64,000 bases of DNA, from the NCBI RefSeq assembly GCF_008369115.1, contig NZ_VOAZ01000001.1, positions 930,001-994,000 on the forward strand, read 5' to 3'. The translations under genes were made by a program, and so were the position numbers. Below, piece after piece: positions 9,127 through 25,463 of the stretch (positions are counted from its first letter, which is position 1; every line of letters starts with the position of its first letter). Source of the DNA: Psychrobacter sp. ANT_WB68 (GTDB lineage Bacteria > Pseudomonadota > Gammaproteobacteria > Pseudomonadales > Moraxellaceae). The notes beneath the pieces are model-generated. The model saw only the letters and a program-made list of their open reading frames with translations, searched no databases and was not told where the DNA came from.

Positions 9127-10380
9127 ATGCAATCGATTAATTTACCTACTAAGCCACCAAGCTCGCCGCATCCCATACTCAACTTGAGCTTTAGGATATT
9201 TTTTAGTGCAGGGGCAATTTTTGCCATTATAACCATGGCGTTGTGGGCATTTGTGTTTACCGGACATACCGATATCGATGCACAAACATTGAATCCGTTA
9301 TATTGGCATGGCCATGAAATGGTATATGGCTATGCGTTGGCCATCGTTGCAGGGTTTTTGCTGACCGCAGTGAAGACCTGGACCGGCGTGATGATGCCAC
9401 ACGGCTATAAGCTGCTCGGTATTTTTATGTGTTGGTTGCTGGCGCGTTTGGGCTGGGTGGCATTTGGCTTAGGTATTACGGTTGCTGGCAGCGGCGCGGC
9501 GTTACTATATGCTGCTGCGGTATTTGATTTGTTGTTTGTCGGCTCGATGGCTTTTGTGATTTTCCGTGCTGTGCTACAAGTTAAACAATATAAACAAATG
9601 GGTATTTTAGCCAAGCTTGCACTACTGACGCTGGGTAATGCTTTGTGCTATTGGGGCATTATCAGCGCCAATATGAATTTAACTAAAACAGGCGTCTATT
9701 TAGGTTTTTATCTGATTATTGGCTTGGTATTGACCATCGGTCGCCGCGTCGTGCCGTTCTTTATTGAGCGTGGTCTGAGTATGCCAAACGCTAAAGGCGA
9801 GACAGAAGTAGTGACGGTGCGTAATAATAAAGCACAAGATATCGCAAGCTTATTGTTCTTCTTTGCCTTTTTTATCTTTGATCTGTTTTATCCTAATAAA
9901 TACTTACTGACCATTAGTGCGCTTGGCGTGGCAGTGGTCAATATTGTACGCTTAGTAGGTTGGTATCATCGCGGCATTTGGCAAAAACCGCTGTTATGGT
10001 CATTATTTGTCGCGTTTTTAGGTATGTGTGTGAGCTTTGTTTTGTACGCACTGCAACCATGGCTAGGCTATAATCATAGTATTGCGGTACATGGATTATC
10101 GATTGCTGGTGTTGGTATGATGACGGTAGCGATGATGGCGCGCGTGTCACTTGGTCATACAGGGCGAAGTATCCATCAGCCACCCAAAATCGTTAATGCG
10201 ATATTTGCGCTCATGGTGTTGGCATTTGTGAGTCGGGTATTTTTACCCTTGGTTGATATGAGTCATTATTTATTATGGATCATGGTTGCACAAGGGGCTT
10301 GGATAGCGTGTTTCGCTCTATTCTGTATCAGTTATTTACCGATGCTCGCACGCCAAAGACCAGACGGTTTATTCGGTTAA
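9127..10380 (+). CDS. nnrS: NnrS family haem-copper membrane protein
   Basis: The 417-residue product is highly hydrophobic with about twelve predicted spans. It shows the family pattern of an N-terminal FRIFFSAGA segment, YWHGHEMVYGYA near 58-69 with conserved histidines, and GRRVVPFFIERG near 205-216. NnrS proteins are inner membrane haem- and copper-containing proteins that help cells withstand nitrosative stress. The preceding NsrR box and the NsrR-like gene 73 bases downstream support a nitric-oxide-controlled pair. Start ATG 9127 follows a purine-rich AAGAAG segment. The family call is strong; the biochemical activity of NnrS is still incompletely known. Confidence 0.9.
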   Translation: MQSINLPTKPPSSPHPILNLSFRIFFSAGAIFAIITMALWAFVFTGHTDIDAQTLNPLYWHGHEMVYGYALAIVAGFLLTAVKTWTGVMMPHGYKLLGIFMCWLLARLGWVAFGLGITVAGSGAALLYAAAVFDLLFVGSMAFVIFRAVLQVKQYKQMGILAKLALLTLGNALCYWGIISANMNLTKTGVYLGFYLIIGLVLTIGRRVVPFFIERGLSMPNAKGETEVVTVRNNKAQDIASLLFFFAFFIFDLFYPNKYLLTISALGVAVVNIVRLVGWYHRGIWQKPLLWSLFVAFLGMCVSFVLYALQPWLGYNHSIAVHGLSIAGVGMMTVAMMARVSLGHTGRSIHQPPKIVNAIFALMVLAFVSRVFLPLVDMSHYLLWIMVAQGAWIACFALFCISYLPMLARQRPDGLFG

Positions 10381-10453: not shown

Positions 10454-11047
10454 ATGCGACTGACCAACTATAGTGATTATGCGCTGCGTTCATTAATATA
10501 TTTGGCGACTAAGCCTGATCCGTACCTATTGGCGAATATTAGTGATATCGCCAATAGTTATAATATCTCTAAAAGTCATCTGACCAAAATTATTCACCAA
10601 TTAGGGCAACTTGGCTATATCGATAGTGTGCGTGGCAAGAACGGTGGTATCCGCTTGGCTCGTGCCCCAAAAGACATTAATTTGGGAGTATTGATTAAAC
10701 AGATTGAGCCAGATTTTAATTTGGTTGAGTGTTTTTCGACCGACTTACTAATCAATCCTAAGCCTGATGCTCATAGAGGTGCTGACAGCTCTGTTAGTAA
10801 TCCTGTTAATGGTGATGAGGATAAAGCGATCGGCAAAGATTTATCCTTGACGCTTATTGATGAACAAGCAAGCGAGGCGGTCAAATCAGGCTGTGTTATC
10901 AGTCCTGTTTGTCAGCTAAAACAGGTGTTTTTTGAGGCATTGACCGCTTTTATTAACGTCCTTGAGCGTTATACATTGGCTGATATTATCAGTAATGAAG
11001 CAGAGCTTGCGGAGTTATTATTTTATAGAAATAGCTTTGTAAAATAA
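10454..11047 (+). CDS. nsrR: Rrf2-family nitric-oxide sensing repressor, NsrR-like, with an insert between cluster cysteines
   Basis: The N-terminal winged helix (MRLTNYSDYALRSLIYLA, then KSHLTKIIHQL and RGKNGGIRLA) matches NsrR, including the early Asp8 used as a cluster ligand in some members. Cysteines occur at 93, 147 and 153. NsrR proteins normally place three cysteines about five residues apart to hold an Fe-S cluster that reacts with nitric oxide. Here 53 residues separate the first from the second, roughly 48 more than usual, and the insert (98-145) is polar and probably disordered. The C-terminal YTLADI helix is typical. An NsrR box before nnrS gives an evident target. The frame is intact. 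Confidence 0.85.
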   Translation: MRLTNYSDYALRSLIYLATKPDPYLLANISDIANSYNISKSHLTKIIHQLGQLGYIDSVRGKNGGIRLARAPKDINLGVLIKQIEPDFNLVECFSTDLLINPKPDAHRGADSSVSNPVNGDEDKAIGKDLSLTLIDEQASEAVKSGCVISPVCQLKQVFFEALTAFINVLERYTLADIISNEAELAELLFYRNSFVK

Positions 11048-11133: not shown

Positions 11134-11880
11134 CTAATCATTTTCAAGTTTAGGGCGGGCTTTTGCAATGGCTTTTAAGAGCGCTTTTTCGAACTCACCG
11201 TCTTTAAATGTGACCAAATAAGAATGTGCCGCGCAAAAGTTACGTACCTCGCGCCAGTCATGCGCCAAATTACTCGCCCAATCGCAATATTGCTTGCCAG
11301 CGTTTGGCTCATTTTTCAGCGCTTTTTTGGTCGTTGGATGCAGCAATAACTCAGGTAATACCGCTTCTAGTAATTTGGTTGGCGGACTCATAAAAGTATC
11401 GTCAACGTGCAAACTCTTACTGGCAGGATGGAACGCCAGTAGCGAGCCTGCATGAATCATCTCATTAGGCGCGATATAGTGAATGCCTTCAGACATAGAG
11501 AATTTTAGCTCAGGATAACGCTCAGCGACCGCCTCGCTTTCGACCAAATCGTCTGCCCATTGTATTGCAGGGATTTTTTTATGATGACGACTGCTGCCAT
11601 AAAAAATCGCTTGCGGAAAGTCTTTGGCCATTTGTGCACAGTGAACAGTATGAAAGGGGTGGACATTGAGCACTGCTTCGACATCTTGCCCATTATTGGT
11701 TAGTATCATTACCTGATCGCGTACGTCACCCGTGAGCTCGTAGCTGTCCAAAAAAATAAAACGCCCTGATGCTAACTTTATAAGCGAGCATTGAGTGCCT
11801 ATATTAATGACGCCACCTAAGCGGAATGTGCCGCGAATATTCCAAAACCCTGCGCCCAAATCATGTATTTTATCGGTCAT
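11134..11880 (-). CDS. Metallo-beta-lactamase-fold-like protein with a degenerate metal motif
   Basis: This 248-residue soluble protein has the beta-strand pattern of the MBL fold (SLIKLASGRFIFLDSYELTG, then VEAVLNVHPFHTVH, later GSLLAFHPASKSLHVDDTF). The canonical HxHxDH metal motif is replaced by HPFHTVH, so only part of the usual ligand set is visible. Metal use and catalysis are therefore uncertain. It converges on nsrR with a shared terminator and is followed by the PETase-like gene on the same strand, but nearly 200 bases apart. No substrate is suggested by the context. Confidence 0.6.
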   Translation of the reverse strand: MTDKIHDLGAGFWNIRGTFRLGGVINIGTQCSLIKLASGRFIFLDSYELTGDVRDQVMILTNNGQDVEAVLNVHPFHTVHCAQMAKDFPQAIFYGSSRHHKKIPAIQWADDLVESEAVAERYPELKFSMSEGIHYIAPNEMIHAGSLLAFHPASKSLHVDDTFMSPPTKLLEAVLPELLLHPTTKKALKNEPNAGKQYCDWASNLAHDWREVRNFCAAHSYLVTFKDGEFEKALLKAIAKARPKLEND

Positions 11881-12076: not shown

Positions 12077-13033
12077 CTATACACAATTTTTATAATCGTA
12101 AGCTGATATACGAGGGCTGCTGCCATAATTTTCGTTATTGCACAAAAACTTATCGAAGCGCATATCACCATTAATGTAACGATGCATCCAAGCAATGCCC
12201 GGTTTGCTCAGTAATTTCTCATTAAAGCGATAGCTTGGACAAAAGTGGCTACCGTTTTTTATCTCAATTTTCATTTTTGGCCCAGCAGCAGCATTATAAA
12301 AAGGACTGCTATATTTCTTATTGGAAGCAATACGGTCGTTCTGGCAGGTAATAAATAAAGCAGGTGTATTCATGTCGCCATAGTCTTTATCATGATAGGG
12401 CGTTTGCGGAATAATTGCGCGAACGCTACTGCGCTTGGTCGCTAGCTGCAGCGCACCACCACCGCCCATTGACCAACCGATCGCCCCCAAACGTTTGTTA
12501 TCTATCTGAGCACCCACCGTACTGTCGCTAAGAATATGGTCGAGAGCGGCACTTAACTGCGTTGCTCGGCTATCTGGGTCATCATAAATAGAGTTGGTAT
12601 CAATAGTTATAACCACAAACCCCCAGGATGCCAGACGCGGACCCCACCATTTAATAGACGCTTCATAAGACACGTAACCAGGAATTACTGCGATGCCGCC
12701 TAACAGGCCACAGTCGCCAGCATTGGTTGGATAATGAATGGTTCCGCCGCCAAAGCCATTTGCCAGCTGCCGAGGCACGGCTTTACTTGCCACAGCAAAA
12801 GGACCGTTATCGCGCGTATCTGACAACTCAGCCGCAGTAATGACACTATCAGAGATACATTTTGATGTAGTGGTTGAGGCTTCTTTGGTCGATAGGGTGA
12901 CGGTTGACAGCTCTTTGATTGTTAGCTTTTCAATTGGGACTATTTGTTCTGTTGTGACCGCTGCCACATTCATAGAAAAAATCAGCGTGCCTGTAGCAGT
13001 AATTAATCTTAAATAAAAAAGGGTGTTCAACAT
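12077..13033 (-). CDS. Secreted PETase-like polyester hydrolase / lipase (dienelactone hydrolase superfamily)
   Basis: The 318-residue protein has a signal peptide (hydrophobic to about residue 25), a Thr/Ser-rich linker, and a hydrolase domain from about residue 75 strongly resembling bacterial PET hydrolases and Moraxella Lip1. The triad is readable: Ser188 in GWSMGGGG, Asp233 in CQNDRIA and His263 in GSHFC, with Tyr120 in PGY for the oxyanion hole. Cys230 and Cys265 match the extra disulfide of type II PETases, and Cys298 and Cys317 the common C-terminal disulfide. Tyr213 takes the place of PETase Trp185, and Phe264 that of Ser238. The likely activity is extracellular hydrolysis of esters or polyesters in the cold; PET activity is not proven. 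Confidence 0.85.
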   Translation of the reverse strand: MLNTLFYLRLITATGTLIFSMNVAAVTTEQIVPIEKLTIKELSTVTLSTKEASTTTSKCISDSVITAAELSDTRDNGPFAVASKAVPRQLANGFGGGTIHYPTNAGDCGLLGGIAVIPGYVSYEASIKWWGPRLASWGFVVITIDTNSIYDDPDSRATQLSAALDHILSDSTVGAQIDNKRLGAIGWSMGGGGALQLATKRSSVRAIIPQTPYHDKDYGDMNTPALFITCQNDRIASNKKYSSPFYNAAAGPKMKIEIKNGSHFCPSYRFNEKLLSKPGIAWMHRYINGDMRFDKFLCNNENYGSSPRISAYDYKNCV

Positions 13034-15108: not shown

Positions 15109-16779
15109 ATGTCAAATATTTATAATAGTGCGCCGTCAGCCTACGATTATCCACTAATCATCAAGCAACTGTTAAACCGTGCCAAAACGGTATCGCTCGA
15201 GCAAGAAGTTGTGTATGCAGATAAAAAGCGTTTCACTTATAAAGAGTTGTTTCAGCGTATCAATCGCTTAGCCAATGTCTTAGCAGGTTTAAATCTTGAT
15301 GCGGGTGATGTGATTGCGGTCATGGATTGGGACAGTCATCGCTACTTAGAATCATACTTCGCCATACCAATGTCTGAGTATATCCTGCAAACTGTTAATA
15401 TCCGTCTGTCGCCCGAAAAAATCCTGTATACCATCAATCATGCTAAGCCCAAAGTACTACTACTCAATTCTGAATTTGCGCCATTGGTGAAAGATTATCA
15501 GTTTGAAAACTCCAGCATTGAGCATATTATTTGGCTCGATGACAATGGGGTATCTTACGAAGGCGTCTTCGGTGGTAACCAAAACCGCGTTACAGGTGAG
15601 TATGAGGCATTGTTAGAGGCGGCCAATAGCGAATTTGATTTCCCAGATTTTGATGAAAACACCATTGCTACTACTTTTTATACTTCAGGCACGACCGGCG
15701 ATCCAAAAGGTGTGTTCTTTAGCCATCGCCAATTGGTATTACATACCCTCACAGAGGCGGCGACATTGGGTATGCTTCCCAACAAGCAAGGCGTCAGTTA
15801 CGGCGATGTTTATATGCCAATGACGCCGATGTTCCACGTTCATGCATGGGGCTTCCCTTTTACAGCCACTATGGTAGGGCTAAAGCAGGTCTATCCAGGT
15901 CGCTATGCGCCCGATGTGTTGATGGATTTGATTATCAATGAAAAGGTCAGTATCACCCATTGCGTACCAACTATTTTGCAAATGGTACTTAAAGAAGCGC
16001 AAGATCGCGAGGCCAGTTTTAATGGTCTAAAAATGATTATCGGTGGTTCTAAACTGACTGAAGGGCTAGCAAAAGCAGCGTTGGCGCAAGGTATTGAAGT
16101 TTATACTGGCTATGGTATGTCAGAGACGGCACCCCTTATTAGCTTGACAGAATTTAGTCTCGATGAGCCTGAGATGTCTGAAGAAGAAGATATTGCTCGC
16201 CGTTGTATGACTGGTAAGCCGGTGCTGATGGTCGATGCTCAAATATGGAATACCAACAATGAATCGGTTGGTACCGGTAAAGATCATACGGGCGAGTTGG
16301 TGCTGCGTGCCCCTTGGCTAACGCAGAGCTATCTAAAGAATGACGATGCGGGTAAAGAGCTGTGGGAAAATGGCTATATGCATACCCAAGATATCGCCTA
16401 CATCCAACCTGATGGTTATATCAAAATCACCGATCGTCTAAAAGATGTCATCAAGTCAGGTGGCGAGTGGATATCATCATTAGAAATTGAGACGATTTTA
16501 TCCTTGCATCCAGCGGTGGCTGATGTGTCAGTGATTGGCGTACGTGATAAGCAGTGGGGCGAGCGTCCGCTAGCTTTGATTGTGCTCAAACCTGCTTGCC
16601 AAGATACCAGCGCTGATGACATCAAAGCGATTGCTGAGCAGGCAGTAGAGCGCGGTATTATTCCTAAATATGGTGTGCCTAGTCAGTTTAAGTTTGTCGA
16701 TGAGCTACCTAAAACCTCTGTTGGTAAACATGACAAAAAAGTTATGCGTGAGATGTATGGTAATCAGACTGAGGTGTAA
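15109..16779 (+). CDS. Fatty-acid/short-branched acyl-CoA ligase (AMP-binding family)
   Basis: The 556-residue enzyme shows the adenylation motifs in order: FYTSGTTGDPKGV near 187-199 (phosphate binding), GYGMSETAP near 338-346, DRLKDVIKSGGEWIS near 443-457 (hinge), and LPKTSVGK near 537-544 with the catalytic lysine. It activates a carboxylic acid with ATP and then CoA. By length and appearance it belongs with medium/long-chain acyl-CoA synthetases. Standing first before prpE and the valine genes, it may feed isobutyrate or a related acid into the pathway, which is inference. CACAAGGAAG before the ATG supplies a ribosome binding site. Confidence 0.85.
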   Translation: MSNIYNSAPSAYDYPLIIKQLLNRAKTVSLEQEVVYADKKRFTYKELFQRINRLANVLAGLNLDAGDVIAVMDWDSHRYLESYFAIPMSEYILQTVNIRLSPEKILYTINHAKPKVLLLNSEFAPLVKDYQFENSSIEHIIWLDDNGVSYEGVFGGNQNRVTGEYEALLEAANSEFDFPDFDENTIATTFYTSGTTGDPKGVFFSHRQLVLHTLTEAATLGMLPNKQGVSYGDVYMPMTPMFHVHAWGFPFTATMVGLKQVYPGRYAPDVLMDLIINEKVSITHCVPTILQMVLKEAQDREASFNGLKMIIGGSKLTEGLAKAALAQGIEVYTGYGMSETAPLISLTEFSLDEPEMSEEEDIARRCMTGKPVLMVDAQIWNTNNESVGTGKDHTGELVLRAPWLTQSYLKNDDAGKELWENGYMHTQDIAYIQPDGYIKITDRLKDVIKSGGEWISSLEIETILSLHPAVADVSVIGVRDKQWGERPLALIVLKPACQDTSADDIKAIAEQAVERGIIPKYGVPSQFKFVDELPKTSVGKHDKKVMREMYGNQTEV

Positions 16780-16883
16780 TGGTTTAGGGAGTGGTCGGCT
16801 TTTAAACATACTTACGCCTAGCAAAATATCGAATGGCTTACGTGCTTAATAGTTGACCTTTATCGTTCGCTCTGCTACATTTT

Positions 16884-16912
16884 AAACCGATACATAACGT
16901 ATCGGTTTTTTA
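16884..16912 (+). terminator. Terminator between the acyl-CoA ligase and prpE
   Basis: AAACCGATAC pairs perfectly with GTATCGGTTT around ATAAC and runs into a T tract. It suggests that prpE has its own promoter. Confidence 0.8.
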
Positions 16913-16999
16913 GTTCTGGCCGGGATAGCCAGTCTTATATTATGATATTATCGGATACATATATCGCATCACCCATCATTTATGCTAAGGACAGCTATT

Positions 17000-19045
17000 A
17001 TGAGCGAGCAAACCGCCACTGCAGTGACCAACCAAACTTCAACCCAAACCTCTCAAGCGCCAACTAACAATCAAACCTTTGCTGATATTTATCGCTCCTC
17101 TATTGAAAATAAAGCGCAGTTTTGGGCAGAGCAAGCTAAGCGTATTTATTGGCATAAAGAGCCTGAGCAAATTCTTGATGACAGCAATTTGCCGTTTGCC
17201 AAATGGTACGTCGGCGGTGAAACCAATCTCTGCTATAACTGTGTCGATCGTCACCTTAAAGAACGCGCAGAGCAGGATGCTTTTATCTGGCTCTCATCTG
17301 AGATTAATCAAGAATTAATAGAAACCTTCCCCGCTGTGGTTGATGCGTTTAAAGATTTGGGCAATAACGTTGAGTTTTATACTGACTATACCAAGCGTCG
17401 CCTGACTTACAACGATCTTTATAAAGAAGTCAATTATTTCGCAGATGTGCTACAGCGTCACGGTATTAAGCAAGGCGATCGCGTCATTATCTATATGCCG
17501 ATGATACTAGAAGCCGCTTACGCGATGTTAGCCTGCGCTCGTATTGGTGCGGTGCATTCAGTGGTGTTTGGTGGCTTTGCCGCGCATAATCTGGCTATTC
17601 GTATGGATGATGCCGAAGCAAAAATGGTGATTACCGTTGATGCCGGCCTACGTGGCGGTAAGGTCGTTAACTATAAGAGCCTTGTGAATCAAGGTATCGA
17701 GCAAGCAACGGTCAAGCCAGAGCATGTGCTAGTGGTCAATCGCGGTGTACTACCATTTGAGCCGCAAGCTATTGATGTGGATTATGCAACCCAGCGCCAC
17801 ATCAGCTGTGAAGCCAATGCCATTGTTGAACCAGTTTGGCTAGAATCTAACACGCCCTCTTATTTGCTTTATACCTCAGGTACCACTGGTACGCCAAAAG
17901 GCGTGCAACGCGATACGGGCGGTCATGCAGTGGCACTGACGACGTCGATGGATTATATCTACGATGGCAAGGCGGGCGAGACGTTTTGGGCAATATCAGA
18001 TATCGGCTGGGCCGTTGGGCATTCTTATACCATTTATGCACCATTGCTCGCTGGCATGACCAGTATCATGTATGAAGGCTTACCGCATCGCCCAAATCCA
18101 GGTATCTGGTGGCGCATTGTCGAAGCCAATAAAGTGAATATCTTATTCACCGCACCGACCGGTGTACGTATGCTCAAAAAACAAGATGAGACTTGGATGA
18201 CGCGCTATGATGTTTCAAGCGTCAAGTCGTTCTTTTTAGCAGGTGAGCCACTTGATGAGTCAACGGCCAATTGGCTGACTAAGCATTTAGGGGTGCCAAT
18301 TTTAGATCATTACTGGCAGACAGAATCGGGTTGGCCGATTCTAAGTAATACGCCCAAGTTTAATCATAAACCTCACAAACAAGGCTCACCGGGATATCCC
18401 ATGTATGGCTATGATGCGCATGTCATTAATGAAGAGACAGGCGAGCCTTGTGCTGCAGGTGAAAAAGGTCTGCTAGCGATTCGCGCACCTTTACCGCCGG
18501 GCTGTTTAACCACAGTATGGCGTAATGACGAGCGCTTTATTAGCAGTTATTTTGGTTTATTTGACGGCAAGCAATACTCGACCTCAGACTATGCCGTGAG
18601 TGACAAAGACGGCTATTTTTATATATTAGGACGTACCGATGATGTGATTAACGTTGCCGGTCATCGTATTGGGACGCAAGAGATTGAAGAGGCTATCAGC
18701 ACCCATCCAGAAATGGCGGAGTGTGCGGTCGTCGGTATCCAAGATGAGTTAAAAGGCGAATTGCCCATCGCCTTCTGTGTGCTCAAAGATCATGAGCAAG
18801 TGGCAACGACAGAAAACCGCTTCCGCATTGAGCAGCAGGTCATTGGCGCGGTGGTCAAATCGCTTGGTGGTATTGCAAGGCCAGCGGCGATTTATTTCCC
18901 GCAAGCATTACCAAAGACGCGATCTGGTAAAATCTTACGCCGTGCTATTCGCGCTTTAGCAGAGGGTAATGAGACAGGTGATATGTCTACACTGGATAAT
19001 CCAACAGCGATTGAGGCCATTAAACAATCTATGAAAGATTACTAA
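17000..19045 (+). CDS. prpE: Propionate--CoA ligase
   Basis: ATG 17000 is preferred to the in-frame ATG 16982 because TAAGGACAGC precedes it at proper spacing. The 681-residue product follows E. coli PrpE over its length (FWAEQAKRI, LCYNCVDRHL, ACARIGAVHSVVFGGFA, YTSGTTGTPKGVQRD, YWQTESGWPI, GRTDDVINVAGHR and LPKTRSGKILRR with the catalytic lysine near the C-terminus). It makes propionyl-CoA from propionate, ATP and CoA; related acetyl-CoA synthetases are the alternative, but the matches favour PrpE. The N-terminus is about 30 residues longer than in E. coli and Thr/Gln-rich. Placed next to the valine genes, it shares their end product, propionyl-CoA. Confidence 0.88.
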   Translation: MSEQTATAVTNQTSTQTSQAPTNNQTFADIYRSSIENKAQFWAEQAKRIYWHKEPEQILDDSNLPFAKWYVGGETNLCYNCVDRHLKERAEQDAFIWLSSEINQELIETFPAVVDAFKDLGNNVEFYTDYTKRRLTYNDLYKEVNYFADVLQRHGIKQGDRVIIYMPMILEAAYAMLACARIGAVHSVVFGGFAAHNLAIRMDDAEAKMVITVDAGLRGGKVVNYKSLVNQGIEQATVKPEHVLVVNRGVLPFEPQAIDVDYATQRHISCEANAIVEPVWLESNTPSYLLYTSGTTGTPKGVQRDTGGHAVALTTSMDYIYDGKAGETFWAISDIGWAVGHSYTIYAPLLAGMTSIMYEGLPHRPNPGIWWRIVEANKVNILFTAPTGVRMLKKQDETWMTRYDVSSVKSFFLAGEPLDESTANWLTKHLGVPILDHYWQTESGWPILSNTPKFNHKPHKQGSPGYPMYGYDAHVINEETGEPCAAGEKGLLAIRAPLPPGCLTTVWRNDERFISSYFGLFDGKQYSTSDYAVSDKDGYFYILGRTDDVINVAGHRIGTQEIEEAISTHPEMAECAVVGIQDELKGELPIAFCVLKDHEQVATTENRFRIEQQVIGAVVKSLGGIARPAAIYFPQALPKTRSGKILRRAIRALAEGNETGDMSTLDNPTAIEAIKQSMKDY

Positions 19046-19350
19046 GCACATTTTTAGGTATATTTCAAAATAGCCTTTATCTAAAAAAGCTCATGAATGG
19101 TCATGGGCTTTTTTATTGTCGCCAATAACTTACCGGTAATGATAAAGAAATCTGACATTAACATTAACTTTGCTAAAAGCAACATAAAGAGCTTGACCCT
19201 AAAATTGTTTTATTGTTATAGTCAATAACGATACGAAACAAATCATTTTAAAATCATATTTGATTGCTAAAAACTTATTATTTTTAACATCTTTTACGCA
19301 CACGAAGACACCGTCACACGGCAGTCCGGTAAACAAGATAAGGAAATCTT
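19046..19350. other. Spacer between prpE and mmsA
   Basis: These 305 bases hold the prpE terminator (19083-19115) and presumably the promoter of the valine operon. An AT-rich stretch at 19200-19290 would suit one, but no confident -35/-10 pair was picked. A purine-rich AAGGAAATC element precedes the mmsA start. Confidence 0.45.
19083..19115 (+). terminator. Terminator after prpE
   Basis: AAAAAAGC-T-CATGA pairs with TCATG-G-GCTTTTTT, with one wobble, followed by T residues. It begins 37 bases after the prpE stop. Confidence 0.8.
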
Positions 19351-20835
19351 ATGCACCACGTTCAGCAGCTCATCAATGGTCAATTTGTTGATTCTAATAC
19401 TAGCGAATGGATTGATATTACCGATCCTGCCACGCAGGAAGTCATCGCTAAAGTTCCGCAAACCACCGATGATGAGATTAACCAAGCAGTCGCGGCCGCT
19501 CAAACGGCTTTTCAAACTTGGCGAAAAACGCCAATCACCACCCGCGCCCGTATCTTCTTAAGGTATCAAGCATTGATACGTGAACATATGGACGAGCTGG
19601 CAGAAATCTTAACGGCCGAGCAAGGCAAAACGATTGCTGATGCGCGCGGTGATGTATTTCGTGGCTTAGAAGTGGTTGAGCATGCCGCTGGTATTGCTAA
19701 CTTGCAGATTGGTGATTTCGTTGAAAACGTCGCCTCAGGCGTTGATACTTACAGCATTTGGCAGCCACTTGGCGTCTGCGCAGGCATTACACCGTTTAAC
19801 TTTCCAGCGATGATTCCGTTATGGATGTTCCCAATGGCGATTGCCACGGGCAACACCTTTATCCTTAAGCCTTCTGAACAAGATCCTATGGTCACTATGC
19901 GTTTGGTTGAGCTAGCCGTTGAAGCGGGTGTGCCTGAAGGCGTACTAAACGTGGTTCATGGTGGCAAGGCGACGGTTGATGCTATTTGTGATCACCCAGA
20001 CATCAAAGCGGTTTCATTTGTTGGCTCTACCAATGTCGGTAAACACGTCTATGAGCGTGCTAGTAAATCGGGCAAACGCGCTCAGTGTATGATGGGCGCA
20101 AAAAATCACGGTGTTATCCTGCCAGATGCCAATAAAGAGCAAACGCTTAATCAGCTAGCGGGTGCTGCCTTTGGTGCTGCTGGGCAACGTTGTATGGCGC
20201 TGTCAGTCGTGGTACTAGTAGGTGCAGCAGGTGAGTGGATTGATGATATCAAAGCCAAAGCTGAAGGCTTGGTTGTATCAGCGGGTAAGCATGATAAAGA
20301 TTTAGGTCCGCTGATTTCTCCTGCTGCAAAAGCTCGTGTTGAGCATTTGATTGGTACTGGTGTAGAAGAAGGGGCTAGTTTGATTCTTGATGGTCGCGGT
20401 ATTACGGTTGAAGGTTATGAGAAGGGCAACTTTGTAGGACCTACTATCTTTGATAACGTCACTGCGGATATGCAAATTTATAAAGAAGAAATCTTTGGAC
20501 CTGTACTGTGTATCATGCGTGCAGCCGACCTTGATGAAGCGATTGAGCTGCTAAATGCCAATCCACATGGTAATGGTACTGCTATATTCACTCAGTCAGG
20601 CGCAGCGGCGCATAAGTTCCAACAAGATATTCAGGTGGGTCAAATCGGTATCAATTTGCCGATTCCTGTGCCACTACCAATGTTCTCATTCTCAGGCTCG
20701 CGTGCCAGTAAACTTGGTGATCTCGGTCCTTATGGTAAGCAGGCTGTGCAATTCTATACTCAAACCAAGACTGTCACGGCGCGCTGGTTTGATGATGAGG
20801 CGAGCCGCGGGGTTAATACCACTATTTCAATTTAA
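19351..20835 (+). CDS. mmsA: Methylmalonate-semialdehyde dehydrogenase (CoA-acylating)
   Basis: This 494-residue ALDH-fold enzyme has the MmsA hallmarks: [17 protein letters not shown] (near 150-166), and GQRCMALS with the nucleophile Cys281. The segment before it ([10 protein letters not shown]) replaces the usual general-base glutamate region, as is normal in MmsA. It converts methylmalonate semialdehyde plus CoA and NAD to propionyl-CoA and CO2, the last step of distal valine breakdown; it can also act on malonate semialdehyde. It heads a same-strand run with acyl-CoA dehydrogenase, enoyl-CoA hydratase, HIBYL-CoA hydrolase and mmsB. AAGGAAATCTT before ATG 19351 is a good ribosome binding site. 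Confidence 0.93.
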
Positions 20836-21008
20836 TCATTAATTCACTATATTAGCGGTGTAACGTCAATCTTGCTTACTATGTTTTTTAGACACTGATG
20901 CATGATTTTTTGATTGTCGTTATGCCGCCGCTATTATAAGTGACATTAAATTGACACTTTACCAAATTCTCTCCACCATATTTGCTTTTTAAGCACAAGG
21001 ATGACCCT

Positions 21009-22169
21009 ATGGATTTTTCACTGACCGAAGATCAAATTGCCTTTCGCCAAACTGCCAGACAGTTTGCCCAAAAAGAGCTAAGGCCGAATGCGGCTGAATG
21101 GGATCGCACCTCGCATTTCCCAGTCGATGTGATTAAAAAATCAGGCGAACTTGGCTTTTTGGGGCTATATACCAATCCAGAATATGATGGTTTGGGATTA
21201 CCACGCTTAGACTCTGCTATGGTCTTTGAGGAACTGGCATGGGGTGATACGGCGGTTGCTGCCTATATGAGTATTCATAATATGGCTGGTTGGATGATCG
21301 GTGAGTATGGCAGCGATACTTTGTGTAAGAAGTATTTGCCCAATATGGTCAGCGGTGAGTGGCTTGGCAGCTATTGCTTAACTGAGCCGAACGCCGGTTC
21401 TGATGCTGCATCGTTACGTACCAAAGCTGACAAGCAAGGCGACCATTACGTACTCAATGGGGAAAAAACCTTTATTTCAGGCGCAGGCTCGACCGATGTC
21501 TTAGTAGTGATGGCTCGCACAGGTGGTGCAGGACCTAAAGGCATTTCAGCTTTTGTAGTAGACGCTGATAGCGCCGGTATCGAGTATGGGAAAAATGAGC
21601 ATAAAATGGGCTGGAAAGCGCAGCCAACACGCACCATCAGCTTTAAAGATGTCAAAGTGCCAGCAGAAAATCTGATAGGTGAGGAAGGCCAAGGTTTTCG
21701 TATCGCTATGAAAGGTTTAGATGGCGGTCGTATTAATATCGGTATCTGTGCAGTGGGTACCGCGCAGTCTGCACTAGAAACAGCAACCAATTACGTGCAA
21801 GAACGCAGCCAATTTGGTAGCGCGATTGCCAGCTTACAATCAGTACAGTTTAAACTGGCCGATATGCTCACTCAAACCATTACTGCAAGGCAAATGCTGT
21901 ATTTAGCAGCTAATAAAGTCGATAACAATGATGGGCAAGCATCCACCTACTGTGCTATGGCCAAGCGTCTTTCTACAGATCTTTGTTTTGATGTCGCTAA
22001 TGAAGCTCTGCAACTACATGGTGGCTATGGCTATCTAAATGAGTATCCACTTGAGCGCCATGTGCGAGATTTGCGTGTTCATCAAATTTTAGAAGGCACC
22101 AATGAAATCATGCGCGTGATTGTCTCGCGTCAGCTGCTACAAGATGAGGCATTGAGTCAATTGCGTTGA
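21009..22169 (+). CDS. Isobutyryl-CoA dehydrogenase (acyl-CoA dehydrogenase family)
   Basis: ATG 21009, preceded by CACAAGGATGACC, is a better start than the in-frame TTG at 20982. The 386-residue product has acyl-CoA dehydrogenase signatures: CLTEPNAGSDAASL near 123-136, GRINIGICAVG near 240-250, and LHGGYGYLNEYPLERHVRD near 335-353. Glu362 in LEGTNEI is at the place of the catalytic base used by short-chain and isobutyryl-CoA dehydrogenases. FAD-dependent oxidation of isobutyryl-CoA to methacrylyl-CoA fits the context of mmsA, the crotonase genes and mmsB; the substrate is inferred from the cluster. Confidence 0.85.
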   Translation: MDFSLTEDQIAFRQTARQFAQKELRPNAAEWDRTSHFPVDVIKKSGELGFLGLYTNPEYDGLGLPRLDSAMVFEELAWGDTAVAAYMSIHNMAGWMIGEYGSDTLCKKYLPNMVSGEWLGSYCLTEPNAGSDAASLRTKADKQGDHYVLNGEKTFISGAGSTDVLVVMARTGGAGPKGISAFVVDADSAGIEYGKNEHKMGWKAQPTRTISFKDVKVPAENLIGEEGQGFRIAMKGLDGGRINIGICAVGTAQSALETATNYVQERSQFGSAIASLQSVQFKLADMLTQTITARQMLYLAANKVDNNDGQASTYCAMAKRLSTDLCFDVANEALQLHGGYGYLNEYPLERHVRDLRVHQILEGTNEIMRVIVSRQLLQDEALSQLR

Positions 22170-22274
22170 TTTTATAATGCTACTGTTTATATTTCGCTAT
22201 GGTTTTCTATGGCTGTTTAATAACTTTACTTTTTAAGAAGCCGTATCAACTTCAAATAAAATAAAGGATTATTT

Positions 22275-23057
22275 ATGACGGATTATACCAATCTTCAATT
22301 ATCGATTGACGGTCATACTGCTACCGTGACATTGAACAACCCACCAGCTCATACATGGACGATGGAAAGTCTACCAGCGCTCAAGCAGCTGGTTTCTGAC
22401 CTCAATGCGAATGATGATGTTTATGCCTTAATTATTTATGGCGATGGCGAGAAGTTCTTTTCAGCTGGTGCAGATTTAAATAATTTTGTAGATGGTGATA
22501 AAGGTCGTGCCATCAGCATGGCTATCGCTTTTGGTGAAGCGTTTGAAGCGCTATCAGCCTATCGCGGCGTTAGCATCGCGGTCATCAACGGTTATGCGAT
22601 GGGTGGTGGACTTGAGTGCGCGCTGGCCTGTGATATCCGTATCGCAGAAGCGCATGCACAGATGGCATTGCCCGAGACAGGCGTTGGCTTATTGCCGTGC
22701 GCTGGTGGCACACAAAACCTGACTATGTTGGTTGGCGAAGGCTGGGCAAAGCGCATGATATTATGCGGTGAGCGCGTCGATGCTGATACCGCATTACGCA
22801 TTGGTTTAGTCGAAGAAGTCACGGCAAAAGGTGGTGGTTTATTAGCGGCGCAAGCATTGGCGCAAAAAGTCGCTAAGCAGTCTCCTGTTGCCGTCACTTA
22901 TTCTAAGCAGCTTATCCAAGCGGCAAGAAACACCCCGCCTGCACAAAACCTTATCCATGAGCGCGAAGCTTTTGTTAAGTTATTCGACACCAAAGACCAG
23001 CGTGAAGGCGTGCAAGCCTTCTTAGAGAAACGTAAACCCACTTGGCAAAATAAATAG
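22275..23057 (+). CDS. Enoyl-CoA hydratase (methacrylyl-CoA hydratase step of valine breakdown)
   Basis: The 260-residue crotonase-fold protein carries SAGADLN near 64-70 and GYAMGGGLECALA, forming the oxyanion hole. Both catalytic glutamates are present, Glu114 (GGGLE) and Glu134 (LPETGVG), twenty residues apart as in crotonase. It would add water to methacrylyl-CoA to give 3-hydroxyisobutyryl-CoA in this cluster. ATAAAGGATTATTT precedes ATG 22275. It starts about 105 bases after the dehydrogenase and 60 bases before the hydrolase gene, probably one transcript. Confidence 0.87.
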   Translation: MTDYTNLQLSIDGHTATVTLNNPPAHTWTMESLPALKQLVSDLNANDDVYALIIYGDGEKFFSAGADLNNFVDGDKGRAISMAIAFGEAFEALSAYRGVSIAVINGYAMGGGLECALACDIRIAEAHAQMALPETGVGLLPCAGGTQNLTMLVGEGWAKRMILCGERVDADTALRIGLVEEVTAKGGGLLAAQALAQKVAKQSPVAVTYSKQLIQAARNTPPAQNLIHEREAFVKLFDTKDQREGVQAFLEKRKPTWQNK

Positions 23058-23117
23058 GCAAAATTGCATCAGATTTCATTCTAATATTTTCCCTTTTAAT
23101 CTTTGTAGGTCACTTTT

Positions 23118-24383
23118 ATGACAGCAGCTATGACAGCGACGGATGACAATAATCAGAAAGCCGTAGAAAAAATCGCACAAGAAGCACCAGTATTGTTTCA
23201 AACTGAAACGACAGACTGTGGTCATCTCATTGGGATAATGACGTTGAATACACCAAAATCTCTCAATGCTTTAAGTGTGGAGATGTGTCAGTTATTATCC
23301 CAACAGCTAGAGCAGTGGGAAAGTGATGATCAGGTAGTGGCATTGGTGCTAAAAGGGGCAGGGGATAAAGCCTTTTGTGCTGGCGGTGATATCCGTAAAC
23401 TCTATGACAGTATGTCAGAAACAGCACCGCTGCCAAACCCTTATGCGACAGAGTTTTTCGGTAGTGAGTACAATCTCTATCGACAGATGCACTTTTATCC
23501 TAAGCCACTCATCCTCTGGGGTGATGGCATTATTATGGGTGGCGGTATGGGGCTAATGGCTGGTTGTAGTCATCGTCTGGTCACTGAGCGCACCCGTTTT
23601 GCGATGCCTGAGATTACCATTGGACTGTTCCCTGATGCCTCTGGCAGTTGGTTTTTGCAGCGTATGCCAGCTAAAACAGGTTTGTTCTTGGGATTAACGG
23701 GTGCGATGTGTAATGGCAGTGACGCATTATTGGCCAATCTGGCAGAGTATGCCGTCGCCAGTGATGATTATGATGCCATCATCCAACGCCTAAAGCAGAG
23801 CGATTGGCAAGCCACAGCTGGTAGCCCAGATCAATGTCATAACAATAGCGCCCATAATATCGTGAGCCGCGCACTGGCAGCGCAACCAGTTGCTAAATTG
23901 CCTGCTAGTAAGCTTGCACAGCATTGGAGTGCTATCCAGCAGCTGATGAACAGCGGTGGCTTGGGTGACATTGATGCAATGCTACAAAGTGACGAGGCTA
24001 TCGCAAAGTTAGATGAAGACTTTGCTAATGACAGTTGGACGCAGCGAGCCGTAGCAACTTATCGACATGGCTGCCCAGTGACTGCAGCGTTGACCTATGC
24101 GCTTTATCATAAAGTCACTGACTTATCGCTAGAGCAAGTTCTGTATTTAGAAACCAACGTGGCGGTACACTGTGCAGCCAATCCGGATTTCAAAGAAGGC
24201 GTACGTGCGCTACTGATTGATAAAGACCGTAATCCACAATGGTCACGTTCATTAACAGACTGCCTCAGTACAGAAGGGCAAGCATACATTCATCAGCATT
24301 TTGTGAATCCTTATGCTAAAGGTGAGCATCCCTTAGATAATTGGTTGGGTGATGAAGCATTAAGCAGTCAGTTGGTGCGCTAA
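23118..24383 (+). CDS. 3-Hydroxyisobutyryl-CoA hydrolase
   Basis: The 421-residue crotonase-superfamily protein shows FCAGGDIRKL near 89-98 and GIIMGGGMGLMAG near 138-150. Glu165 and Asp173 in MPEITIGLFPDASGS are eight residues apart, as in characterised HIBYL-CoA hydrolases. It is longer than an ordinary enoyl-CoA hydratase, with the C-terminal extension usual for hydrolases. The reaction frees 3-hydroxyisobutyrate from CoA, which lowers toxic methacrylyl-CoA and feeds mmsB. An N-terminal tail of about 25 residues is poorly conserved in appearance; the in-frame ATG at codon 5 is an alternative start. Confidence 0.88.
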   Translation: MTAAMTATDDNNQKAVEKIAQEAPVLFQTETTDCGHLIGIMTLNTPKSLNALSVEMCQLLSQQLEQWESDDQVVALVLKGAGDKAFCAGGDIRKLYDSMSETAPLPNPYATEFFGSEYNLYRQMHFYPKPLILWGDGIIMGGGMGLMAGCSHRLVTERTRFAMPEITIGLFPDASGSWFLQRMPAKTGLFLGLTGAMCNGSDALLANLAEYAVASDDYDAIIQRLKQSDWQATAGSPDQCHNNSAHNIVSRALAAQPVAKLPASKLAQHWSAIQQLMNSGGLGDIDAMLQSDEAIAKLDEDFANDSWTQRAVATYRHGCPVTAALTYALYHKVTDLSLEQVLYLETNVAVHCAANPDFKEGVRALLIDKDRNPQWSRSLTDCLSTEGQAYIHQHFVNPYAKGEHPLDNWLGDEALSSQLVR

Positions 24384-24488
24384 GCGTCTTTAAATATCTA
24401 TAAAGCAATACAAACAATTTCAATTAAATAAATCATGCAATAACTTATGTAGCAATACCTACATAAGCGATCATCAAGGAGTGATGAG

Positions 24489-25463
24489 ATGGGTACAACG
24501 GGTTCAGTTTTAAGTAATAAAGAAACAAAGAATACGGTTACGACCAATAGCAATACTGCTAAGCCAAATATAGCCTTTATTGGGCTTGGCAATATGGGCG
24601 CACCGATGGCAGAGAACTTGTTAAAAGCAGGTTATACACTGTCTGTTTATGACTTATCTGCGGATGCGACCCAGCGCTTGCAGCAAGCAGGTGCCAGTGT
24701 GGCTGATAGTCCTAAAGATGCTGCAAGCAACGCTCAGGTCATCATTAGCATGTTGCCGGCTGGTAAGCACGTCCATTCTGTCTATTTAGGTGACAGCGGC
24801 GCTAATGGTTTGCTGGCAGTATTGCCTAAAGGTACATTGGTTATTGATAGCAGTACCATTGCTGCTGCTGATGCAAGATTGGTGGCAGAGGCAGCAAGTA
24901 AGCTTGGCATCGACTTCTTAGATGCACCAGTCTCCGGTGGTACAGGCGGTGCCATCGCTGGTACTTTAACCTTTATCGTTGGTGGTAGCGACGACGCATT
25001 TGCCAAAGCTGAGCCAATACTTGCCATTATGGGAAAAAATATCTTTCATGCAGGCGACCATGGTGCCGGACAAGTTGCAAAAATCTGTAACAATATGCTG
25101 TTAGGTATTTTAATGGCGGGTACGGCAGAAGCAATTAATCTGGGTGTCAAAAACGGTCTAGACCCTAAAGTGCTATCAGATATTATGCTACAAAGCTCAG
25201 GTCGTAACTGGACGCTAGAAGTCTATAACCCTTATCCGCAAGTGATGGAAAACGTTCCTTCTAGTAATGGCTATAAGGGCGGATTTATGAGTAAACTGAT
25301 GCAAAAAGACCTTAACCTTGCGATGCAAACGGCTCAGGATACCAATGTTGAGACGCCAATGGGTGCTAAAGCAACGGAGCTCTATGAAGCTCATGCAGTA
25401 GAGAACGGCGATAAGGACTTCTCTAGTATTATTGCGCGTCATGATAGCTCGGTACTGTCTTAA
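24489..25463 (+). CDS. mmsB: 3-Hydroxyisobutyrate dehydrogenase
   Basis: This 324-residue beta-hydroxyacid dehydrogenase has an N-terminal Rossmann motif FIGLGNMGAPMAENLL (near 31-46), the substrate loop DAPVSGGTGGAIAGTLT, and the catalytic Lys198 in GQVAKICNNM. It oxidises 3-hydroxyisobutyrate to methylmalonate semialdehyde with NAD, just before MmsA. AAGGAG seven bases before ATG 24489 supports a start that leaves an N-terminal tail of about 27 residues (Asn/Thr-rich) not found in most relatives. It ends the catabolic run, followed by a strong terminator. Confidence 0.92.
   Translation: MGTTGSVLSNKETKNTVTTNSNTAKPNIAFIGLGNMGAPMAENLLKAGYTLSVYDLSADATQRLQQAGASVADSPKDAASNAQVIISMLPAGKHVHSVYLGDSGANGLLAVLPKGTLVIDSSTIAAADARLVAEAASKLGIDFLDAPVSGGTGGAIAGTLTFIVGGSDDAFAKAEPILAIMGKNIFHAGDHGAGQVAKICNNMLLGILMAGTAEAINLGVKNGLDPKVLSDIMLQSSGRNWTLEVYNPYPQVMENVPSSNGYKGGFMSKLMQKDLNLAMQTAQDTNVETPMGAKATELYEAHAVENGDKDFSSIIARHDSSVLS

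Follow-up and report, generated by a model that had tools for sequence, protein, structure and literature searches.

The window, a 64,000-nucleotide stretch of the genome of Psychrobacter sp. ANT_WB68, encodes a 318-aa protein that, judged from its sequence, is very probably the Mors1 orthologue of Psychrobacter, a type IIa member of the PETase/cutinase family: a secreted, cold-adapted serine ester hydrolase that would cleave polyesters promiscuously. The first-pass annotation had read the gene as a PETase-like secreted hydrolase with type II cysteines, and the searches agree on the family, the signal peptide being judged by eye. The protein matches Pfam family PETase (PF12740) with an E of 5.6e-87, and its best PDB match by phmmer is 8spk (Lipase 1 / Mors1; E 1e-139). 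The score against the NCBIfam equivalog NF051441 (bis(hydroxyethyl) terephthalate hydrolase) is 241.3 bits, far under the curated cut-off of 520, which makes that name unsuitable for the protein. We found no characterisation of this particular 318-aa protein in the literature. Coordinates are collected in Table 1.

Table 1. The hydrolase gene, its parts and its downstream neighbour (window positions; residue numbers of the 318-aa protein).
Feature	Position	Strand	Basis or remark
Secreted PETase-family (type IIa, Mors1-like) hydrolase gene, 318 aa	12077..13033	-	ATG start; Pfam, PDB matches
Likely Sec signal peptide, residues 1-25 (MLNTLFYLRLITATGTLIFSMNVAA)	12959..13033	-	By eye; without lipobox cysteine
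Thr/Ser-rich linker, residues 26-58 (13 of 33 S/T)	12860..12958	-	Length varies among orthologues
Catalytic alpha/beta-hydrolase domain, residues 59-318	12080..12859	-	Alignment, PDB match, models
Ser188, nucleophile, within GWSMG	12470..12472	-	Alignment
Asp233, triad	12335..12337	-	Alignment
His263, triad	12245..12247	-	Alignment
Tyr120 (IsPETase Tyr87), oxyanion hole / subsite I	12674..12676	-	Alignment
Tyr213 (IsPETase Trp185, Mors1 Tyr214)	12395..12397	-	Alignment; Mors1 residue from PMC11509169
Phe264 (IsPETase Ser238), type IIa residue	12242..12244	-	Alignment
Cys230 (Mors1 Cys231), predicted half of active-site disulfide	12344..12346	-	Alignment
Cys265 (Mors1 Cys266), predicted half of active-site disulfide	12239..12241	-	Alignment
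Cys298, predicted half of C-terminal disulfide	12140..12142	-	Alignment
Cys317, predicted half of C-terminal disulfide	12083..12085	-	Alignment
Cys59 (Mors1 Cys60), predicted half of third disulfide	12857..12859	-	Alignment
Cys108 (Mors1 Cys109), predicted half of third disulfide	12710..12712	-	Alignment
Downstream neighbour gene, 248 aa, same strand as hydrolase	11134..11880	-	Near-constant in carriers

We aligned the protein with IsPETase, RgPETase, PET6, LCC, the Thermobifida hydrolase (TfH) and Mors1. The IsPETase, LCC and Thermobifida sequences used are identical to the PDB chains residue for residue, and for Mors1, PET6 and RgPETase we used the sequences shown in the PDB match alignments. 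The catalytic set called in the first-pass annotation stands: Ser188, Asp233, His263 and Tyr120 align with IsPETase S160, D206, H237 and Y87, and the triad within GWSMG is accompanied by the oxyanion-hole Tyr/Met (Tyr120, Met189) and by Trp187, the equivalent of IsPETase Trp159. The cysteine pairs Cys230/Cys265 and Cys298/Cys317, as the same annotation had it, fall at C203/C239, the special disulfide of IsPETase, and at C273/C289, and probably form the two bonds that mark type II enzymes. The extended beta8-alpha6 loop of type II is likewise present, two residues longer than in LCC and TfH and one shorter than in IsPETase and PET6. Phe264 fits type IIa, which has Phe or Tyr at the position of IsPETase Ser238, and in the tree the protein groups with PET6, order-level relatives and Mors1, split from IsPETase and RgPETase (99/94). 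By sequence, then, the protein is type IIa-like, unlike the type IIb IsPETase.

Further residues place it in the Mors1 clade: Tyr213, Cys59 and Cys108 are all present. Both cleft changes noted at first pass, Tyr213 for Trp185 and Phe264 for Ser238, are borne out by the alignment, and as aligned they are not peculiar to the window enzyme, since they recur in Mors1 and in almost every member of its clade; position 213 is Tyr throughout the 34 distinct Psychrobacter sequences in the alignment. Asp152 corresponds to Mors1 Asp153, at the position of IsPETase Gln119, and varies among Psychrobacter sequences. The pair Cys59/Cys108, missed by the first-pass annotation, aligns with Mors1 Cys60/Cys109 and is invariant in 34/34 distinct Psychrobacter sequences; IsPETase, LCC and the Thermobifida enzyme have no cysteines at these positions. 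For Mors1 the bonds Cys60-Cys109, present in its crystal, and Cys231-Cys266 are reported (PMC11509169), and the cysteines matching both are kept throughout the same 34 sequences. Most order-level type IIa relatives (L050-L059) have two close N-terminal cysteines right before the domain, unlike the Psychrobacter Cys59/Cys108. We also noticed a tandem pair of PETase-family genes in one genome from another family of the order (L049; G202, contig C6), comparable to the tandem genes Ple628/Ple629 (PMC11509169).

The N-terminal region is more variable. A Thr/Ser-rich linker does precede the fold as first annotated; its length from signal peptide to Cys59 is 33 residues, not about 45, and across Psychrobacter orthologues the same stretch spans 10 to 62 residues in the alignment. 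Residues 1-56 have pLDDT below 50 in the full-length AlphaFold model. The AlphaFold models were built template-free and are of moderate confidence at best: the full-length model is poor (pLDDT 63.6), and the domain-only model is better (mean pLDDT 73.5), its value being held down by the small number of usable sequences. With the template-free model as query, 8spk comes top by Foldseek; it also comes top by VIA-align (Z 25.4, rmsd 2.9 over 248 residues), where the next row, Z 24.6, lies inside the 1-unit tie margin. A database search and a structure model, two of the checks proposed at first pass, converge on 8spk by phmmer, Foldseek and VIA-align.

Identity to Mors1 (8spk) is 75.7% over residues 59-318 and to IsPETase 45%, in keeping with the first-pass view that it resembles IsPETase and Moraxella Lip1. 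The tree was to decide between plain lipases and PET hydrolases, and it places the protein with the latter: Mors1 lies inside a Psychrobacter clade that also holds the 318-aa protein (100/100), pairing with P. okhotskensis (99/92) and then with P. glaciei (99/93). Because it nests in this way, the nominally Moraxella gene for Lip1 of strain TA144 is of the Psychrobacter type. The strain also goes under the name Psychrobacter in the literature.

What the protein would do to polyesters has to be read from Mors1, whose clearing of PCL is best at 25 °C; at the same temperature amorphous PET film loses ~2% of its weight to Mors1 within 6 days, and the enzyme releases MHET and TPA from PET (PMC11509169). 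The strongest rival explanation is that we are looking at a plain lipase or esterase with the family fold and no meaningful activity on polyesters such as PET. Mors1 was originally named Lipase 1 (the molecule name of 8spk), and Tyr213 stands in place of the usual subsite I Trp185. However, the subsite I of Mors1 has the same Tyr (Tyr214, which with Asp153 makes up its two differences there) and the enzyme still degrades PCL and amorphous PET (PMC11509169), and the subsite II residues and the active-site cysteine pair appear conserved in the 318-aa protein. We consider a lipase of this limited kind unlikely.

Distribution was followed in two ways. A PF12740 search covered 105 Psychrobacter genomes, one per species, its weak matches resembling other hydrolases, and the 318-aa query was run at E <= 1e-30 against 299 genomes, which represent 16 genera of the family. 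Fifty genomes match the query, all of them Psychrobacter; at this threshold the hydrolase is absent from the 15 other genera sampled. It is present in about half of Psychrobacter species, with two copies in one carrier genome and an apparently split copy in another, less complete one. Compared codon by codon with those orthologues for which dS is computable, the gene has a dN/dS of 0.04-0.10. The hydrolase is an old, maintained Psychrobacter gene, patchily present and under strong purifying selection.

Almost every carrier has a homologue of the 248-aa neighbour downstream of the hydrolase gene and on its strand, the nearest homologue being 75 to about 1,600 bases away. The 248-aa family is found in 96/105 Psychrobacter species, with or without the hydrolase and often as two tandem copies; the window's member (11134-11880) has no Pfam or NCBIfam match and, by eye, looks like a metallo-beta-lactamase-like fold. 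Promoter and terminator scans gave nothing over chance level. Elsewhere in the window, 10454-11047 (+) encodes an Rrf2-family regulator whose top NCBIfam match is NsrR (135.8 bits, under the cut-off of 182), directly preceded by a gene (9127-10380) for a 417-aa, membrane-protein-like product without NCBIfam match. A run of genes at 15109-25463 (+) fits valine/propionate catabolism: fatty acyl-CoA ligase, propionate-CoA ligase (PrpE), methylmalonate-semialdehyde dehydrogenase, acyl-CoA dehydrogenase, enoyl-CoA hydratase, 3-hydroxyisobutyryl-CoA hydrolase and 3-hydroxyisobutyrate dehydrogenase.

Could the protein be dedicated to degrading plastic and supply a terephthalate pathway of its host, as in Ideonella sakaiensis? 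There are true PET hydrolases in the family, and the nearest characterised relative yields MHET and TPA (PMC11509169). However, Ring_hydroxyl_A has a single match in the host genome, which is nearly complete: benzoate 1,2-dioxygenase (BenA; 840.9 bits against a cut-off of 781), whose gene adjoins those of its small subunit and of a catechol 1,2-dioxygenase. This disfavours the idea that the host uses terephthalate from PET through the known dioxygenase route. A search of the host for a tannase-family (MHETase-like) protein gave no match, and the search's own controls were also silent. The spread of the gene through about half of the genus under strong purifying selection likewise makes it far older than plastics. 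A dedicated plastic degrader is thus very improbable, and since the host's one ring-hydroxylating dioxygenase match is the benzoate enzyme, PET cleavage is probably a side activity: a natural role like that of a lipase or cutinase fits best.

Recent acquisition by ANT_WB68, for example via a mobile element, is less probable still and was rejected: Psychrobacter alone among the 16 sampled genera carries the gene, which would allow an old transfer into the genus, but the nearest relatives are all Psychrobacter, and tree position and synteny are common across the genus, almost every carrier keeping the gene on one strand with its neighbour.

For the Mors1 orthologue that we favour, the mechanism would run as follows. 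The protein would be exported via the Sec route and, once outside the cell, cleave triglycerides or natural polyesters. His263 and Asp233 would activate Ser188 for its attack on the ester carbonyl, with Tyr120 and Met189 contributing the oxyanion hole. Three disulfides may lend stability to a cold-adapted, otherwise flexible fold, and at about 25 °C the enzyme would also accept aliphatic polyesters and amorphous PET as promiscuous substrates. A more far-reaching proposal, which we consider unlikely, is that the Mors1-like enzymes of Psychrobacter are a distinct subgroup of type IIa, adapted to cold (Tyr at Trp185, three disulfides, an SYRF-type shorter loop) and with a specific natural polyester or lipid substrate, and that the window enzyme is more cold-active than Mors1.

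With this protein, a cold-active polyester hydrolase that has been characterised gains a close natural homologue. Mors1-like enzymes are standard in about half of Psychrobacter species and not the rarity of one Antarctic isolate; the roughly fifty natural variants, with their fixed Tyr185-equivalent and third cysteine pair, offer ready material for enzyme screens and for work on cold adaptation.

The protein is a good candidate enzyme of a kind already known, and known in the same genus, since P19833 and A0A0D4L7E6 are already catalogued: as PET8 (Moraxella sp.) and PET9 they are among the 13 PET hydrolytic enzymes of Danso et al. (PMC8540959, a 2021 review). PET9 (Psychrobacter sp., 313 aa) is listed as a putative PET hydrolase (PMC8540959, Table 11). 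Mors1/Lip1 ('Moraxella' sp. TA144, P19833, 8spk, PET8) has the triad in common with it, and likewise Tyr where IsPETase has Trp185, Asp for Gln119, Phe for Ser238, the three cysteine pairs and the N-terminal extension; it differs by 24% sequence divergence and a separate subclade inside Psychrobacter, a Mors1 Asp being replaced by Asn232 and a Mors1 Ala by Pro244. PET6 (Vibrio gazogenes, 7z6b), also type IIa, is 52% identical and has Phe at the equivalent of position 238, and a third, N-terminal disulfide is reported for it (PMC11509169); unlike the 318-aa protein it has Trp at 185, Gln in place of Asp at 119 and one more residue in the loop. IsPETase (Ideonella sakaiensis, 6ane, type IIb) has the triad, Tyr87, Trp159 and the positions of the active-site and C-terminal disulfides in common with it, but has Trp185 and Ser238 where the Psychrobacter enzyme has Tyr and Phe, lacks the third cysteine pair and carries another extended-loop sequence.
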